Part shown: piece after piece, positions 969 through 13,315 of the stretch
Layout: each line of letters begins with the position of its first letter
How positions within the stretch are numbered: position 1 is the stretch's first letter
Source: Nitrospira sp.
GTDB taxonomy: Bacteria > Nitrospirota > Nitrospiria > SBBL01 > JAADHI01
DNA: 34,102 nucleotides
Assembly: GCA_027020665.1 (NCBI GenBank)
Contig: JALUVJ010000129.1
Span: 1-34,102, forward strand
Direction: 5' to 3'
The notes under the pieces: generated by a model
Told to the model about the DNA's origin: nothing
The model's database searches: none
What the model saw: the letters and a program-made list of their open reading frames with translations, nothing else
Program-made: the position numbers and the translations under genes

Positions 969-2063
969 ATGAAAAGAACACCGTTGTATGAAGTCCATGT
1001 GGAGGCCGGGGCGAAGTTGGTTCCTTTTTCCGGTTGGGAAATGCCGCTGTCTTATTCCGGTGTGACGGATGAACACTCCGCCGTGCGCAATGCAGCGGGC
1101 CTCTTTGATGTGAGTCACATGGGTCGTTTCGAGTTCTCGGGTGTAGGAACAGAAGCCTTTTTGGATTACATGACCCCGGCGGCCTTAAAAAAAATGCCCC
1201 GCGGTGGTGCGCTTTATTCGATGCTTTTGAATGAGGCGGGCGGTATTATTGATGACATTTATCTTTATAAAAGAGGGGTCGATCGTTATCTCATGATTGT
1301 GAATGCGGCAAATCGCGCCAAGGCCTTGAAGTGGCTCACGAAACATCTGACGAAAGACGGCGTGATGCTGGAAGATGTCACGGAAGAGACTGCCCTGCTT
1401 GCTTTGCAGGGGCCGAAATCCCGGGATATTTTACAGCGCATTATGCCGTTTTCAAAAACGGAGATTGCCCTGCGTAAGTTTACCGAGGTTGAGCTTGTGC
1501 CGGTACGGGGAGCAAAAGTTCTCATTGCGCGAACGGGTTATACCGGAGAGAAGGGGTATGAGATGGTCATTCCGGCTGAGCATGCGATTGCCGTCTGGCA
1601 GGCACTCATGGAAGCAGGCCGTGAATTTATGCTGAAACCCGCCGGGCTGGGCGCGCGTGATACCTTGCGTCTTGAAATGGGTTATCCCTTGTATGGCCAG
1701 GAAATGGATGAAAATACCACGCCTGTCGAGGCTTCGCTTGTGCAGTTTGTGGATTTTGACAAGGATTTTATCGGCAAGGCGCCGCTGCTGGAGCAGAAAG
1801 CTAGGGGTGTGTCTCGTAAATTATTGGGATTTGAACTCATGGTGCGCGGCATTCCGCGGGCGGGGCACCTTATTTATTCCGATCAAAAGGAAGTAGGCAA
1901 AGTGACTTCCGGCAACTACGCGCCTTCATTGAAAAAAGGCATCGGCATGGGTTACGTGGATGTGGCCTACAGCGAACCCGGCAGTGAATTATTGGTTGAT
2001 ATTCGCGGCAAGGCCGCAGCCGCATTGGTTGTAAAAAAACCGTTTTACCGAAAGAAAAAATAA
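969..2063 (+). CDS. gcvT: Glycine cleavage system T protein (aminomethyltransferase)
   Basis: T protein transfers the methylene group from the aminomethyl-lipoyl arm of H protein to tetrahydrofolate, releasing ammonia. It has 364 residues, the normal length. Seen: N-terminal TPLYEVHVEAGAKLVPFSGWEMP, the HSAVRNAAGLFDVSHMG segment, ALLALQGPKS, ARTGYTGEKGYEM, and GLGARDTLRLEMGYPLYG with the following EMDE, all hallmarks of GcvT and its folate-binding barrel. A strong Shine-Dalgarno AGGAGG (959-964) lies close upstream of the ATG. gcvPA follows after 9 bp. The usual gcvH that sits between T and P in many operons is absent here. Confidence 0.96.
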   Translation: MKRTPLYEVHVEAGAKLVPFSGWEMPLSYSGVTDEHSAVRNAAGLFDVSHMGRFEFSGVGTEAFLDYMTPAALKKMPRGGALYSMLLNEAGGIIDDIYLYKRGVDRYLMIVNAANRAKALKWLTKHLTKDGVMLEDVTEETALLALQGPKSRDILQRIMPFSKTEIALRKFTEVELVPVRGAKVLIARTGYTGEKGYEMVIPAEHAIAVWQALMEAGREFMLKPAGLGARDTLRLEMGYPLYGQEMDENTTPVEASLVQFVDFDKDFIGKAPLLEQKARGVSRKLLGFELMVRGIPRAGHLIYSDQKEVGKVTSGNYAPSLKKGIGMGYVDVAYSEPGSELLVDIRGKAAAALVVKKPFYRKKK

Positions 2064-2072
2064 GGACGCTTG

Positions 2073-3413
2073 ATGGAATATATCCCCAAAACCCCCGAAG
2101 AAGAAAAAGAGATGCTGGAGGCAATCGATGCCGCTTCTTTTGACGCCTTGCTCGAAATCCCTGCCGAATTTCGTTTGAATCGCGCGCTGGATCTTCCGGC
2201 GCCTCTTTCTCAAATGGCGCTTAAGCGGGAGATGTCGGCTTTAAGCCGAAAAAACCGGGACACGGCCACAACGCTTTCTTTTTTAGGAGGCGGCAGCTAC
2301 GATCATTTTATCCCCGGCACGGTTGATCATGTGATCGGGCGTTCCGAATTTTACACCGCATATACGCCTTATCAGGCCGAGTTGAGCCAGGGGCTTTTGC
2401 AAACCATTTACGAATATCAAACCATGATTTGCCAGCTCACGGATATGGAGGTTTCCGGCGCTTCGCTTTATGACGGCGCATCGGCACTTGCCGAGGCGGC
2501 GTTGATGGCGATTCGTTTTACGAAACGGGGAAAAATCCTGGTTGCGAAATCCGTGCACCCGCATCACCGTGAAGTGATCAAGACCTATCTTTCCGGACTG
2601 CCGGGTGCCGTGGTGGAAGAAATTCCGCTTGAGGCCGGAACTTTGGAGATTCCGTCGCTTGAAGCCCGGATGGACGATACGGTTGCGGCGCTGTTGATGC
2701 AATATCCCAATTTTTACGGGCAGTTGGAAAATGCAGAAGCCCTTGAAGGCATTGTGCATGCCCAGGGCGGATTGTTGGTGATGGGCGTTGATCCCATTTC
2801 GCTTGGCGTACTCAAAACACCGGGGGAGTTTAATGCCGACATTGCCGTGGGAGAGGGTCAGGCGATGGGCAATCCCCAAAGCTTCGGTGGCCCCTACATG
2901 GGGTTTTTTGCGACGCGTAAAAAAATGATTCGTCAATTGCCGGGCCGAATTGTGGGGGCAACGACGGATGTCCGGGGCCGCGCGGGGTTTTGTCTTACCT
3001 TGCAAACCCGAGAGCAGCATATCAAGCGGGAACGGGCCACCTCAAATATTTGCACCAATCAAGCCTTAAATGCGCTGGCAGCCTCGGTTTATTTGGCGAC
3101 AGTGGGGAAAAACGGTCTGAGAGCAGTCGCAAGCCTTTGCCTGGAAAAATCTCATGCGGCACAGGCGCGGATCACGGCGCTCCCCGGATTTTCGACACCC
3201 TTTGACGGGCCGTTTTTTAAGGAATTTGTCGTGAAAACGCCAAAAGCGGCGGCCGACATTCTGGATGATGTTTTGAAAGCGGATATTTTTGCAGGCATTG
3301 ACCTGGGCATTTATGATCCGCAACTTGCGGATCATTTGCTCATCTGCGTGACCGAAAAACACGAAACCTCAGATCTTGACCGCTTGGTGGCGGCGCTTTC
3401 AAGTACGGTATAA
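2073..3413 (+). CDS. gcvPA: Glycine dehydrogenase (decarboxylating) subunit 1, P protein N-terminal half
   Basis: Alpha subunit of the two-subunit type of glycine decarboxylase; with GcvPB it decarboxylates glycine using pyridoxal phosphate and loads the aminomethyl group on lipoylated H protein. About 446 residues, the size of split-type subunit 1. Seen: YIPKTPEEEKEML at the start, FLGGGSYDHFIPG, TAYTPYQAELSQGLLQTIYEYQ, the GxQxxGNPQSFGGPYMG-like segment (GEGQAMGNPQSFGGPYMGF) and TLQTREQHIKREKA-type text. ATG at 2073 is preferred over an in-frame TTG at 2070 because AAGGA (2062-2066) is 6 bp from it. GcvPB, which carries the PLP lysine, is not next to it: a metal transporter follows. Confidence 0.95.
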   Translation: MEYIPKTPEEEKEMLEAIDAASFDALLEIPAEFRLNRALDLPAPLSQMALKREMSALSRKNRDTATTLSFLGGGSYDHFIPGTVDHVIGRSEFYTAYTPYQAELSQGLLQTIYEYQTMICQLTDMEVSGASLYDGASALAEAALMAIRFTKRGKILVAKSVHPHHREVIKTYLSGLPGAVVEEIPLEAGTLEIPSLEARMDDTVAALLMQYPNFYGQLENAEALEGIVHAQGGLLVMGVDPISLGVLKTPGEFNADIAVGEGQAMGNPQSFGGPYMGFFATRKKMIRQLPGRIVGATTDVRGRAGFCLTLQTREQHIKRERATSNICTNQALNALAASVYLATVGKNGLRAVASLCLEKSHAAQARITALPGFSTPFDGPFFKEFVVKTPKAAADILDDVLKADIFAGIDLGIYDPQLADHLLICVTEKHETSDLDRLVAALSSTV

Positions 3414-3480
3414 GTCCCTCTGAATCCCAAGATGCCTGTGTAAATTGGACTTCTGCCCGCATATCCTGTATCTATCGCCG

Positions 3481-4395
3481 ATGCGAATTTTCCCCGCTTT
3501 TGCCTCAAAATGCTGTGCCTGTTTTATCCGGATGTTTTGTTTAACGGTGCTTTTTGTTACAAATACGCAGGCCGCGCCGCCTATTGCCGTGGTTGCCACG
3601 CTTCCTGTTTTAAAAGATTTGGCCGAGGCCGTCGGCAAAGAACATGTCCGGGTTTCAAGCTTAATCTCGGGTTTGGAGAGCGAACACACCTACACCCCCA
3701 AGCCGAGCGATCTGATTACGATTCAAAAAGCGAAAGTCTTGTTTCAAATCGGTCTGGATTTGGAGCTTTGGGTGAGGCCGCTGATTCAAAATGCGGACCG
3801 GCCGGATTTACCCCTTATCACGACTTCCCGAGAGGTGAAGGTGATTGAGACGGGTGCGGCGGATGATCACGGGCACGGTGCGGCCAATCCGCACATCTGG
3901 CTTGATCCGCAGAATGTAAAGGTGATGATCGGCCATATCTTAAAAGGCTTGATTGCCGCCGACCCGGATCACCGACAGGATTATGAAAAAAACGCCTCAG
4001 ACTATATTCGCGCCTTGGAAAACCTTGAGAAGGAGTTGAAAACAAAAGTCGGGCGATTGAAAGATAAAAAAATCATCACACATCATCCGGCCTGGCCCTA
4101 TTTTGCGCAACGCTTCGGTTTCGATATTCGCAGCAATATTTTGATGCAGATCGGCAGTGCGCCCTCGGCGAAAAAATTGGGTGTGCTGATTCGACAAATC
4201 AAAGAAGAAGGAATCCGGGTGATTGTTTCGGAGCCGCAGTTGAATCAGAAGATTCCGAGTATCCTGGCCGAAGAAACGGGTGCGACGGTAGTGCCGCTTT
4301 CTCCCTTGACGGGGGCGATTTCCGGAACGGATCATTACTTGGATCTGATGCGTTACAATATCGAAACTCTCGCCGCAGCCTTGGAAAAGCCCTAG
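3481..4395 (+). CDS. znuA: Zinc/manganese ABC transporter periplasmic binding protein (ZnuA-like)
   Basis: Cluster A-I metal-binding receptor that hands Zn2+ or Mn2+ to the permease. From the ATG at 3481 it has 304 residues with a signal peptide (a basic start, then MFCLTVLFVTNTQA, cleavage near residue 31). Candidate metal ligands are the His in SEHTYTPKPSD, the His in ANPHIWLDP, the His pair in IITHHPAWPYF and the Asp in SGTDHYLDLM. A very short His/Asp loop (DDHGHG) precedes PHIW, much less His-rich than in E. coli ZnuA. A TTG 36 bp upstream could also open the frame but adds residues ahead of the signal peptide, so I reject it. Zn versus Mn cannot be decided from sequence. Confidence 0.9.
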   Translation: MRIFPAFASKCCACFIRMFCLTVLFVTNTQAAPPIAVVATLPVLKDLAEAVGKEHVRVSSLISGLESEHTYTPKPSDLITIQKAKVLFQIGLDLELWVRPLIQNADRPDLPLITTSREVKVIETGAADDHGHGAANPHIWLDPQNVKVMIGHILKGLIAADPDHRQDYEKNASDYIRALENLEKELKTKVGRLKDKKIITHHPAWPYFAQRFGFDIRSNILMQIGSAPSAKKLGVLIRQIKEEGIRVIVSEPQLNQKIPSILAEETGATVVPLSPLTGAISGTDHYLDLMRYNIETLAAALEKP

Positions 4396-4399
4396 CGTT

Positions 4400-4420
4400 G
4401 CGTCAAGTGTGAAGTGACGC
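4400..4420. repeat. Inverted repeat GCGTCA-N9-TGACGC between znuA and znuC
   Basis: Two perfect 6-bp arms (GCGTCA 4400-4405, TGACGC 4415-4420) separated by 9 bp begin 5 bp after the znuA stop. In RNA this makes a small stem-loop, which could protect the upstream message or set the receptor-to-ATPase ratio; in DNA it could be a regulator site. It has no T-tract, so it is not a convincing terminator. Confidence 0.4.
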
Positions 4421-4436
4421 TTACAGGAAGCTGATG

Positions 4437-4460
4437 ATGAATTTGAGATTGTTTAAATGA
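4437..4460 (+). CDS. Possible 7-residue leader mini-ORF overlapping the znuC start
   Basis: ATG at 4437 opens the peptide MNLRLFK and stops at TGA 4458-4460, which overlaps the znuC ATG (4457) as ATGA. AGGAAG at 4425-4430 is 6 bp from this ATG, whereas znuC itself has no Shine-Dalgarno at proper distance. The arrangement suggests ribosomes load on the mini-ORF and reinitiate at znuC. It is very short and may be chance. Confidence 0.35.
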   Translation: MNLRLFK

Positions 4461-5251
4461 CGGCGCAGCCGATTGTTCAGTTTTCGCAGGCGAGCTTTGC
4501 TTACAATGGTCACACTGCTCTTGAAGATTTGACGCTGGACTTACACGAAGGGGAGTTTGTCGGCGTAATCGGTCCGAACGGTTCCGGAAAGACGACCCTG
4601 CTTAAAGCCTTGTTGGGATTAATGCATCCTGTTTCCGGTGCGCTTCAGATTTTTGATTGCGCCTGCCAGGCCTTGCGCTGTGAACACCGGGCACGCATCG
4701 GTTATTTGCCGCAAAAAGAAAAGACCGACCCCAACTATCCGATTACGATCTGGGAGGTCGCCATGATGGGGCGCTACGGGTCTTTGGGTTTGATAAAGCG
4801 GCCTTCCAAAGCAGACCGTGAAATCGTGCTGGACGCACTGGATTCCGTTGATATGGCGGATTTAAAGGACCATCCTTTTGGTCATCTTTCGGGCGGAGAG
4901 CAGCAGCGTGTGCTGATCGCGCGTGCACTGGCGCAGCGGCCTGAAATTCTGTTGCTGGATGAACCCACAACAGGCATTGATGCGACAACACAGCGGCGCT
5001 TGGTTGAACTAATCTGCAAGGTGCATCAGGCCTACCGTTTGACGATTGTCTTGGTGACACACGATATTAATATGATTAGTAGCATTGCTGAAACAATTTT
5101 ACTTCTAAAAACAAAACTTTATGCAAAAGGCCCGCCTGCTGAAATATTGACAAAGGACGTGCTTTCGCCCGTTTACGGCGAAGAAGTGATTATCGCAAAA
5201 CGGGATCAAAAGCCCTATATCATCCTCAGCGACGAACATCATCATGCTTGA
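4457..5251 (+). CDS. znuC: Zinc/manganese ABC transporter ATP-binding protein (ZnuC-like)
   Basis: ATPase of the metal importer, 264 residues. Walker A GPNGSGKTT near residue 39, signature LSGGEQQRVLIARAL near 145, Walker B EILLLDEPTTGID and the switch VLVTHDINMIS are all intact. The region after the Q-loop (MMGRYGSLGL) is typical of the metal-type ABC ATPases. The C-terminus ends with EHHHA, a small His cluster that is also seen in some homologues. The gene overlaps the permease by 8 bp and probably depends on upstream translation, since its own start has no clear Shine-Dalgarno. Confidence 0.93.
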   Translation: MTAQPIVQFSQASFAYNGHTALEDLTLDLHEGEFVGVIGPNGSGKTTLLKALLGLMHPVSGALQIFDCACQALRCEHRARIGYLPQKEKTDPNYPITIWEVAMMGRYGSLGLIKRPSKADREIVLDALDSVDMADLKDHPFGHLSGGEQQRVLIARALAQRPEILLLDEPTTGIDATTQRRLVELICKVHQAYRLTIVLVTHDINMISSIAETILLLKTKLYAKGPPAEILTKDVLSPVYGEEVIIAKRDQKPYIILSDEHHHA

Positions 5252-6062
5252 ATTGCTTTCTTACGGTTTTATGCAGCGTGCCTTCATTGCCTCACTGCTC
5301 ATCGGTCTGGTTTGCTCGACAATCGGGGTTTTTGCCGTTTTAAGGGGCATCACCTTTATCGGTGCGGGCACCGCACACGCGGCTTTTGCAGGGGTGACTC
5401 TGGCTTTTTTAACGGGGCTTCCGCCTTTTCTGATGGCGGTGATCAGCGGGCTTTCCATGGTGTGGGTGACGACTTACGTGCAGGAAAAAGGTAAGATGAA
5501 ACCCGATGTCCCGATCGGCGTTTTTTATACCTTTACGATGGCGCTGGCGATTTTTTTTATCGGCTTGATGCAAGGGTATCGCCCGGAAGTGTTTGCCTAT
5601 CTCTTCGGCAGCATTCTCTCCGTGACACAATCGGACCTCATCGTCATCTTGGTGCTTTCACTTGCCATCCTTCTTGTGCTCGCTCTTTTTTTTAAGGAAT
5701 TTCATTTTATTTCTTTCGATCAGGAAATGGCCGAAGCCAGCGGCATCCCGGCAAAAAAGCTCAGTTTTTTGCTTTTGAATTTGATTGCTTTAGCGGTGGT
5801 GATTGCGTTGAAGGCCGTTGGGGCGATTTTGGTTTTTGCTTTGTTGGTCATTCCGGCCGCCGCAGCGCAGCAGTGGGCACACAACATGCGGTCGATGATG
5901 ATCTATTCGGCCCTCATCGGTGTGGGAGCGTCCTGGACGGGTGTGCTGCTTTCTTACTGGTTTGATGTGCCTTCGGGGGCGACGATTGTGCTCTTGGCCT
6001 CCGCAGTCTTTTTATTCTCTGTGCTTTTTCCCGGGAAGCGTCAGGGTTTGCGGCGCTTCTGA
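5244..6062 (+). CDS. znuB: Zinc/manganese ABC transporter permease (ZnuB-like)
   Basis: Inner-membrane channel subunit, 272 residues, of the ABC-3 permease family. The protein is almost entirely hydrophobic with about eight to nine predicted membrane spans. Family text includes QRAFIASLLIGLVCSTIGVF at the N-terminus, GAGTAHAAFAGV, the PDVPIGVFYTFTMALAI segment, the FDQEMAEASGIPAK loop that faces the ATPase, and LKAVGAILVFALLVIPAAAA. It overlaps znuC by 8 bp, so stoichiometric synthesis is likely. It converges with the malic enzyme gene 26 bp downstream. Confidence 0.94.
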   Translation: MLELLSYGFMQRAFIASLLIGLVCSTIGVFAVLRGITFIGAGTAHAAFAGVTLAFLTGLPPFLMAVISGLSMVWVTTYVQEKGKMKPDVPIGVFYTFTMALAIFFIGLMQGYRPEVFAYLFGSILSVTQSDLIVILVLSLAILLVLALFFKEFHFISFDQEMAEASGIPAKKLSFLLLNLIALAVVIALKAVGAILVFALLVIPAAAAQQWAHNMRSMMIYSALIGVGASWTGVLLSYWFDVPSGATIVLLASAVFLFSVLFPGKRQGLRRF

Positions 6063-10816: not shown

Positions 10817-13315
10817 ATGACGGATGTAATACAAAAAGACACCCGCTTTTTCGCCCCGGTTTATCGGGAGGTTTCGCGTGAAGGCCTTAGGCTTCTCATT
10901 GACCCGGAGACCCCGCATTGGATGACAACCGATGTGCGCGGTGCGCGCATCATGCGCCTGCTCGACGGTCAGCGCGATTTTTCAGAAATTGTCCGGCACT
11001 ATGCTCGTGCGGAAGATACGGATTGGAGTTTGGCATGGCTGCACTGCCACAGTTTTTTGCAAGACGCGCTGCGCAGAAATTTTATCTCCGAATCGCCCCG
11101 GCTTAAGGCACCCTATCCCGGCCGTGCCGAAACCCTGCGGCTTGATCATTTGACCGACTTATGGCTGCATGTGACGAATGCCTGCAACCTGGCCTGCGAA
11201 CATTGTCTGGTGGATTCTTCCCCAAGCGGCGAGGCGGGAGGGGATACCGATTTTTGGCGACGCACGATTGACCAGGGCCTGGCTTTGGGGGTGACCCGTT
11301 TTTTTATCACGGGAGGAGAGCCTTTTTTGCGCGAGGATATTTTTGAAATTATCGACCACATTTTGTCTCCGCCGCATGGGGAAAAAACCGAATTGATGAT
11401 TTTGACCAACGCCATGCTCTTCCGGGGCAAACACCTCAAACGCCTCACGACTTATGCGCCCGATGCCTTTCAACTTCAGATCAGTCTCGACGGACCTACA
11501 GCCGAAATCAACAACCCCATTCGGGGCAAGGGCAGCTTTGACGCAACCGTTCGCGGCATTAAAGAAGTGATCGGTCTCGGCTTTTCTCCCACCCTCACCA
11601 CGGTCGTCAATCGCGCGAATATTGCGCACTTGCCTGAGATGGTGAAACTGGGCGCTTCCCTGGGCATCAAAAATATTCACCTTTTGTTAAGCCATCATCG
11701 CGGGCGGGCCGCAGGCACTGAAAGTCTTAAATCGCCCTCTGCTTCGGCATTACTGCATGCCTTTAAAACCGTTAAACGCTTGAGCAATGAAGCAGGGATG
11801 ACTTTTGATAACGATGACGTGCTCTTGGGAAAATTGATGGGGCCTTCCGGTGTGAAAGGTGACCTTTCGAATGCGGGTTATGAATCACTTTGTGTTTATG
11901 CCGATGGGCAGGTTTATCCCTCCGCAGCCTTAGCCGGTATTCCGGCGCTTCGTATGGGGAATCCCGATGAAACCTCACTGGAAGCCATCTGGCGCAGTGC
12001 GGCCCTTGCGGAAGAAATGCGACAGTGCACGGTTCAAAAAAAGCGCAAGTGCAAAGATTGTTACCTGAAATATTTGTGCGGGGGCGGCGACATCGAACAC
12101 ACTTATCTTTACAGCGGTCAATTTATGGGGGAAGATCCTTTTTCAGAATTTTATGAACAGCGGATTTTGGACTTGCTCTTTGAATTGGCACAAAAAAAAT
12201 CACGGCAAACCACTGCTTCGGGTTATGATCGGCCCGTGATTTTCTCGGCAATGGGTGAAGGGGCTGTTGTTGAAGACATCGTGCCGGGCGCGCCTGCCGT
12301 CGGGGGATTTGAGGTTTCACTCTCCCGCTCGGCCTGTGTCTTGTCGGTTGATTTGGATCACTCCCGCCGTGTCGTGAGTGATTTTTACGGGGATGCCGCA
12401 GATGTGCCGCAACCCGCCTTGTGCTGTCCCGATGTTTATTCCGATCACGACAGTGAACACATTCCGCAAGAAGTCATGGATATTTCTTACGGCTGTGGCA
12501 GTCCCGTGGGTCTTGCCGATGTTTCGGAGGGAGAAACGATGGTGGACTTGGGCTCCGGCGGCGGCATCGATTGTTTTATTGCAGCCAAGAAAGTCGGGCC
12601 GTCGGGAAAAGTTGTAGGCATCGATATGACGGATCAAATGCTGCGTAAAGCCCGGCGTGCGAAAGAAAAGGTGATAAAAAATCTGGGTTTTGAGAATGTG
12701 ACGTTTAAAAAAGGGTATTTGGAAGATATCCCCCTGCCGGATCAGTTTGCGGATTTGATAACCTCAAATTGTGTCATCAATCTTTCCCCGGATAAAAAGC
12801 AGGTTTTTGTCGAAATCTGGCGCGTTTTGAAAGACTTCGGCCGTATTGTCGTTTCCGACACAATTTCAGAAAAGCCCGTGCCGGAAGGCATGCGTGCCAA
12901 TCCGCGGCTCTGGGGCGAGTGTGTTTCCGGGGCCCTCACCGAAACGGAATACATCGCAAAGATGGAGCAAGCGGGATTTTATGGGCTCTCTATCTTAAAA
13001 CGCAGCCTTTGGAAAGAAGTGGAGGGTTACCGTTTCTTTTCAGTCGTCATTCGAGGTTATAAATTTCAAAAAAAGGCGGCTTGCCGCTACATCGGGCAGG
13101 AGGCGACTTATTTAGGTCCAATGCAGGCCGTCATGGACGAAGAAGGCCACTTTTTTCCACGCGATCAAGCCGTTGCCGTCTGCACGGACACGGCGGAAAA
13201 ATTGAAAAAACCACCCTACCAATCCGATTTTGTCGTGACTCAGGGCGATCAGGCCGGGGTGCGCAGCCCGCAGGACACGGACAATCCCTGTTGTGAACCC
13301 GAAGCGTGCTGTTAA
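10817..13315 (+). CDS. Fusion protein: PqqD-like domain, radical SAM/SPASM enzyme and ArsM-like arsenite methyltransferase
   Basis: 832 residues. Residues ~15-90 resemble PqqD-like peptide-recognition domains (WMTTDVRGARIMRLLDG, then a DFSEIV helix). The radical SAM core has CNLACEHC (C123, C127, C130) and GGEP (166-169). A SPASM-like cysteine set follows (C359, C404, C412, C415, C421) that could hold auxiliary Fe-S clusters. From ~530 it is a class I methyltransferase of ArsM type: YGCG (C560), SAM loop VDLGSGGGID, SNCVINLSPDK (C652) and WGECVSGAL (C702). The CC pair at 536-537, C560, C652 and C702 match the four arsenite-binding Cys known in ArsM. The C-terminus ends PCCEPEACC. It has its own promoter and terminator, so is monocistronic. 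By family knowledge ArsM methylates As(III); the chemistry of the radical half is unknown. No arsR, arsB or arsC is nearby. Confidence 0.88.
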   Translation: MTDVIQKDTRFFAPVYREVSREGLRLLIDPETPHWMTTDVRGARIMRLLDGQRDFSEIVRHYARAEDTDWSLAWLHCHSFLQDALRRNFISESPRLKAPYPGRAETLRLDHLTDLWLHVTNACNLACEHCLVDSSPSGEAGGDTDFWRRTIDQGLALGVTRFFITGGEPFLREDIFEIIDHILSPPHGEKTELMILTNAMLFRGKHLKRLTTYAPDAFQLQISLDGPTAEINNPIRGKGSFDATVRGIKEVIGLGFSPTLTTVVNRANIAHLPEMVKLGASLGIKNIHLLLSHHRGRAAGTESLKSPSASALLHAFKTVKRLSNEAGMTFDNDDVLLGKLMGPSGVKGDLSNAGYESLCVYADGQVYPSAALAGIPALRMGNPDETSLEAIWRSAALAEEMRQCTVQKKRKCKDCYLKYLCGGGDIEHTYLYSGQFMGEDPFSEFYEQRILDLLFELAQKKSRQTTASGYDRPVIFSAMGEGAVVEDIVPGAPAVGGFEVSLSRSACVLSVDLDHSRRVVSDFYGDAADVPQPALCCPDVYSDHDSEHIPQEVMDISYGCGSPVGLADVSEGETMVDLGSGGGIDCFIAAKKVGPSGKVVGIDMTDQMLRKARRAKEKVIKNLGFENVTFKKGYLEDIPLPDQFADLITSNCVINLSPDKKQVFVEIWRVLKDFGRIVVSDTISEKPVPEGMRANPRLWGECVSGALTETEYIAKMEQAGFYGLSILKRSLWKEVEGYRFFSVVIRGYKFQKKAACRYIGQEATYLGPMQAVMDEEGHFFPRDQAVAVCTDTAEKLKKPPYQSDFVVTQGDQAGVRSPQDTDNPCCEPEACC

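Follow-up and report, generated by a model that had tools for sequence, protein, structure and literature searches.

The window analyzed here, a 34,102-nucleotide stretch of DNA, carries on its forward strand an open reading frame (10817-13315) that begins with ATG, contains zero internal stops and encodes a protein of 832 amino acids. This one chain consists of an RRE/PqqD fold, a radical SAM domain, a SPASM region and a complete ArsM (arsenite methyltransferase) half, an architecture proposed in the first-pass annotation and borne out by the intact reading frame, by domain searches and by an AlphaFold2 model of the full protein (pLDDT 84, pTM 0.79). Its neighbors are unrelated or housekeeping genes, encoding a secretion-type ATPase, FmdE, a redoxin, chorismate synthase, a GlmU-like enzyme and glycine cleavage proteins, and a simple scan of the window yielded no promoter or terminator signal above chance. 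At 969-3413 and 3445-6062, the window holds the glycine cleavage genes (GcvT and GcvP-type) and then a ZnuA-type metal uptake operon. In close relatives, the fusion adjoins a divergent Crp/Fnr-type regulator (L001:2960-3697, L002:5079-5816, L003:5069-5806) that is absent from this position in the window.

A scan of genome contigs detected 17 full-length relatives with the same architecture (44-84% identity), labeled as Nitrospirota, Elusimicrobia, Omnitrophota, Acidobacteria/Vicinamibacterales, Planctomycetota (Anammoxibacter) and Desulfobacterota, and the fusion is spread over at least six phyla. Because these relatives are intact in other genomes, frameshift or misassembly as the source of the fusion, which had been raised at the outset, is ruled out; genomes with separately encoded halves do exist, alongside the many in which the fused gene is intact. 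In a tree of the ArsM half, type-1 fusions form one group of 23 rows with members from many phyla, a pattern that implies horizontal transfer. The nearest free-standing ArsM proteins, at 50-56% identity, belong to the Nitrospirota families f12 and f13.

The ArsM half (residues about 512-832; 12350-13312) has the arsenite methyltransferase model NF008823 as its best NCBIfam match (6e-71; 239 bits, just under the cut-off of 263). In addition, it matches solved ArsM enzymes in the PDB by sequence (1.6e-39) and by fold search of the model (E 1.5e-23), with Pfam Methyltransf_31 at residues 571-711 (6e-32), and is thus a SAM-methyltransferase fold with ArsM homology, complete as first described. The cysteines C536, C537, C560, C652 and C702 lie where the first-pass annotation had placed them, and C536, C560, C652 and C702 align with the As(III)-binding cysteines of CmArsM and CrArsM and are conserved in fused relatives. 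C536 of the N-terminal pair C536-C537 (12422-12427) aligns with a CrArsM cysteine, C560 (12494-12496) is the equivalent of CmArsM Cys72 in the alignment with 4kw7/4fr0, and C652 (12770-12772, in an SNCVINL motif) and C702 (12920-12922, in a WGEC motif), both predicted to bind As(III), align with the remaining conserved CmArsM ligands. Across 25 fused homologues, C359, C507, C537, C560, C652, C702, C756 and C831 are invariant. The protein ends in a cysteine-rich tail, CCEPEACC (C825-C832; 13289-13312), in which C831 is invariant and C825 and C832 are nearly so; residues 811-832 have low pLDDT and are disordered in the model.

The other half of the chain belongs to the radical SAM superfamily by motif and by fold. 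Its core (residues about 112-300; 11150-11716) matches Pfam Radical_SAM (PF04055) at residues 119-277 (3.5e-19) and carries the expected CxxxCxxC motif, CNLACEHC (C123, C127, C130; 11183-11206), the [4Fe-4S]/SAM site, which is kept in every fused row with readable sequence. The N-terminal half of the model matches CteB with a TM score of 0.72 over 472 columns, with further radical SAM fold matches to SuiB, anSME and PqqE. Membership in the ArsS family was considered and is ruled out, as the ArsS model TIGR04167 scores 50 bits against a cut-off of 300, at ~19% identity, and its match is limited to the radical-SAM core. The module ends with C507 (12335-12337), which is also present in free radical-SAM proteins that terminate just past it.

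Two regions flanking this core bear on what the enzyme acts upon. By sequence, the N-terminal domain (residues about 10-90; 10844-11086) gave only a weak Pfam PqqD match (E=0.017, below cut-off), and structure confirmed it: residues 1-106, folded alone, match PqqD (5sxy, TM 0.72) and TbiB1 RREs, forming a winged-helix fold of three strands plus three helices like that of PqqD. The SPASM region (11873-12088) matches PF13186 at residues 353-416 (8e-7), but of the usual auxiliary-cluster cysteines the window clade has just four (C359, C412, C415 and C421) and others have fewer. As C412, C415 and C421 are gone in six other fused members (L006, L007, L008, L133, L139 and L142), the auxiliary cluster does not seem essential.

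An RRE domain together with SPASM normally means a peptide substrate, and this counts against an arsenical as the substrate here. The corresponding alternative is a peptide-modifying (RiPP) enzyme, in which the RRE would bind a leader peptide while the radical-SAM/SPASM and methyltransferase halves modified the peptide, and the true RRE/PqqD fold and the closest fold matches, the sactipeptide and related enzymes CteB and SuiB, would agree with it. A comparison of small open reading frames within 1.5 kb of the fusion, however, revealed no precursor peptide conserved across clades; most matches linked close relatives, many of them lying within homologous genes or antisense to these, and the one match beyond close relatives was a weak antisense match (L007-L133). 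The RRE is moreover shortened in the separate form of the radical-SAM protein and absent from a Planctomycetota variant (L020), auxiliary-cluster cysteines are lost in several members, the arsenic ligands are invariant, and the neighbors described below are of arsenosugar type. We therefore consider a RiPP enzyme very improbable. Of the first-pass suggestion that the PqqD-like part brings a peptide to the radical site, the fold has held up and the peptide delivery is disfavored; the RRE-like domain probably persists as a legacy or plays a structural part.

As had been noted at the outset, no ars resistance genes lie near the fusion, and the Acr3 arsenite pump is absent from the whole window genome. 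No Acr3 was found in ten fusion genomes (G000, G180, G196, G160, G276, G314, G262, G140, G178 and G286), where organoarsenical synthesis could stand in for efflux. The missing pump is also what one might expect of an arsenic-methylating detoxification enzyme whose N-terminal half has lost its catalysis or serves the ArsM half only as a shield or regulator, an explanation with which the complete ArsM half and the degenerate SPASM cysteines of several members would fit. On the other hand, all fused members keep the CxxxCxxC motif and many radical-SAM core residues, and a gene for the radical-SAM half alone occurs beside a TIGR04282 gene, which makes this explanation improbable, although less so than a peptide substrate.

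In Synechocystis and other organisms, ArsM and ArsS are the first two enzymes of arsenosugar biosynthesis, the latter adding a 5'-deoxyadenosyl group to dimethylarsenite. The window genome has no ArsS above cut-off and no ArsM-type protein found other than the fusion. It does encode TIGR04282 (contig C175) and TIGR04283 (contig C54, cut by the contig end), whose glycosyltransferase names were assigned by NCBI through association; neither adjoins the fusion.

The distribution of these genes was compared in 296 Nitrospirota genomes, counting window-like fusions only, by Fisher tests that treat genomes as independent and ignore shared ancestry, a problem that repeated swaps within an order soften and do not remove. 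ArsS occurred in 0/11 fusion genomes compared to 159/285 others (p=1.7e-4). Both glycosyltransferases were present in 148/159 genomes with ArsS and in 26/137 without it (p=4e-42), ArsS and the pair going together. Among the ArsS-less genomes, a glycosyltransferase was found in 11/11 with the fusion compared to 26/126 others (p=1.6e-7); every one of the 11 had at least one of the two, and nine had both. Within the order of the window itself, the fusion occurs in families f1 and f4 and ArsS in f2 and f3, while families f8 and f10 each hold one genus of either kind. The co-occurrence with TIGR04282 and TIGR04283 thus holds for the fusion as well, a functional analogy to ArsS and not membership in its family.

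A second sample covered 237 genomes from an Acidobacteria phylum. There, TIGR04283 was found in 10/10 fusion genomes compared to 58/227 others (p=2e-6), and among ArsS-less genomes in 8/8 compared to 32/193 (p=1.3e-6). ArsS itself was not depleted in fusion genomes (2/10 compared to 34/227, p=0.65); of the two Nitrospirota patterns, only the link to the glycosyltransferases recurs here, without the exclusion of ArsS. Fusion and ArsS occur together in some genomes (G012, G016, G398 and G504); locus L171 of G398 was left out of the fusion comparison.

Gene neighborhoods in other clades provide further support. TIGR04282 lies near the fusion at L007, L008, L009 and L019 and TIGR04283 at L009, L010, L011 and L013; in total, one or the other falls within the fetched flanks at 7/27 fusion loci (p about 1e-8 to 1e-10 unthinned and 1e-5 thinned by clade). 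Other neighbors include VTT proteins, FAD oxidoreductase, phosphate-type (PiT) transporters, DUF3047 and a GH63-type glycosidase, and the same set, glycosyltransferases included, recurs at Nitrospirota ArsS loci. At L021, ArsS and a PiT transporter gene come immediately after a separate ArsM gene. Many Nitrospirota genomes have an in-frame TGA inside the ArsS match, which we take to be the expected selenocysteine form of TIGR04167.

In family f13 (G023, G033 and G042), the two halves are separate genes, and these genomes have no ArsS. The radical-SAM protein, about 481 amino acids long (L127:4969-6414 in G023), ends just past the invariant C507, and the ArsM protein of about 316 amino acids (314-320 for separate ArsM genes) starts where the ArsM half of the fusion starts. 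In G023 and G033, the radical-SAM gene touches the TIGR04282 gene, and after the ArsM gene all three genomes have a VTT-domain gene and then the TIGR04283 gene. As both halves occur in one genome, each beside one glycosyltransferase gene, this arrangement is the clearest sign that they serve one pathway.

Several variants of the fusion were also detected. The Planctomycetota variant without an RRE (L020:5972-7843) is a radical SAM-ArsM fusion of 623 amino acids whose ArsM half is 50% identical. Two Acidobacteria genomes encode triple fusions of radical SAM, ArsM and a C-terminal DUF5714 (L168:1967-5104 in G460 and L169:1333-4488 in G539; Pfam matches of 6.5e-56 and 1.2e-52, respectively), in which the LCCP cysteine pair and the SPASM cysteines are absent and the other arsenic cysteines are kept. 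A third long open reading frame, in G319, seems to owe its additional length to an open frame that overlaps the gene. One Nitrospirota genome (G140) has three copies of the fusion (L135, L136 and L137), one followed by a PiT transporter gene and another with VTT, DUF3047 and FAD oxidoreductase genes nearby. Type-2 fusions (L018 and L145; families f32 and f39) are 38-41% identical. They were counted apart from window-like fusions because they share a genome with ArsS in 5/11 genomes and are without the C-terminal tail region, and their role may differ.

Taken together, comparative genomics suggest that the fusion does the work of separate ArsM and ArsS proteins, the first steps of arsenosugar synthesis. 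Our preferred reading, to which we assign a probability of roughly 0.6, is that one chain stands in, as a non-orthologous replacement, for both ArsM and ArsS in arsenosugar-type biosynthesis. By homology, the ArsM half would bind As(III) via its conserved cysteines and methylate it with SAM. The radical-SAM/SPASM half, if the gene replacement is a guide, would cleave a second SAM and move a radical, most likely 5'-deoxyadenosyl, onto the methylated trivalent arsenic in the manner of ArsS, and the products would be handed to the TIGR04282 and TIGR04283 glycosyltransferases encoded elsewhere in the window genome. The first-pass idea that one chain couples methylation to a radical transfer, making a complex organoarsenical, thereby gains support that is genomic and not biochemical: a neighborhood shared with ArsS, replacement of ArsS with the glycosyltransferases kept, and separate halves beside the same genes.

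Counting against the replacement are the unrelated neighbors of the fusion in the window genome, a radical-SAM half that lies outside the ArsS family, the genomes that have both fusion and ArsS, and the undepleted ArsS of the Acidobacteria sample. The second of these makes another radical transfer, such as that of ArsL, the main rival. The fusion would then make an organoarsenical outside the arsenosugar family, either by transferring another group, for instance the 3-amino-3-carboxypropyl group that ArsL transfers, or by modifying an already adenosylated arsenical. That ArsM can team up with other radical chemistry is shown by ArsL (PMC8552651), and some genomes do hold both the fusion and ArsS. 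Against this, the ArsS-tied glycosyltransferases are kept in ArsS-less fusion genomes of two phyla and the neighbors are the same as at ArsS loci; we regard such a product as unlikely, if the most plausible of the alternatives.

If the replacement is correct, the fusion would represent a second, structurally different radical-SAM route to C-As bonds in a single testable protein. It would place arsenosugar-type synthesis in uncultivated Nitrospirota, Acidobacteriota, Omnitrophota, Elusimicrobiota, Desulfobacterota and Planctomycetota, and would provide a case in which the substrate of an RRE-SPASM enzyme is a small molecule of inorganic origin instead of a peptide. At about even odds, we further propose that As-adenosylation evolved independently here, with an RRE-SPASM radical-SAM enzyme outside the ArsS family joined to ArsM. 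The one chain would convert As(III) to the precursor of arsenosugars, an adenosylated dimethylarsenical, in Manganitrophaceae and other bacteria that do not photosynthesize, and in some Acidobacteria it carries a further fusion to DUF5714. To our knowledge, complex organoarsenicals come from few bacteria and C-As bonds from very few enzymes.

Among curated NCBI families, none covers the fusion with a score above the cut-off of the family, and no description of it was found in the open literature searched; the one fusion mentioned in a Sci Rep survey of ArsM is with selenophosphate synthetase and comes from a protist (PMC5552862). ArsM fusions with AhpD or DUF2284 (selenoproteins NF041537 and NF041536) likewise combine ArsM with an extra domain in one chain, but those domains are unrelated, placed differently and without radical SAM. 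The maturases CteB, SuiB and StsB of sactipeptides and ranthipeptides resemble the first 511 residues in fold and in the order of domains, whereas the fusion has reduced or lost auxiliary cysteines, no peptide partner found, and an attached ArsM. ArsM/AS3MT enzymes (PDB 4fr0, 6cx6, 5evj and 8xt7) share the fold, SAM motif, As(III) cysteines and C-terminal region, which here form the C-terminal half of a larger protein. In the arsinothricin pathway of Burkholderia gladioli, ArsM likewise has a radical-SAM partner, which makes a C-As bond, and the arsinothricin ArsM model is among the best matches of the fusion's ArsM half (203 bits against a cut-off of 500); ArsM and ArsL are, however, separate genes with an ArsQ transporter, and ArsL transfers 3-amino-3-carboxypropyl (PMC8552651). 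The nearest parallel is ArsM with ArsS (TIGR04167), which adenosylates arsenic (reviewed in PMC12159101): both systems pair an arsenite methyltransferase with a radical-SAM enzyme beside the same neighboring genes, and fusion genomes keep TIGR04282 and TIGR04283, mostly without ArsS, but the fusion is one chain instead of two, with an RRE, radical SAM and SPASM module outside the ArsS family. The fusion would thus present known activities in an unreported architecture, a testable and possibly independent route to C-As bonds.
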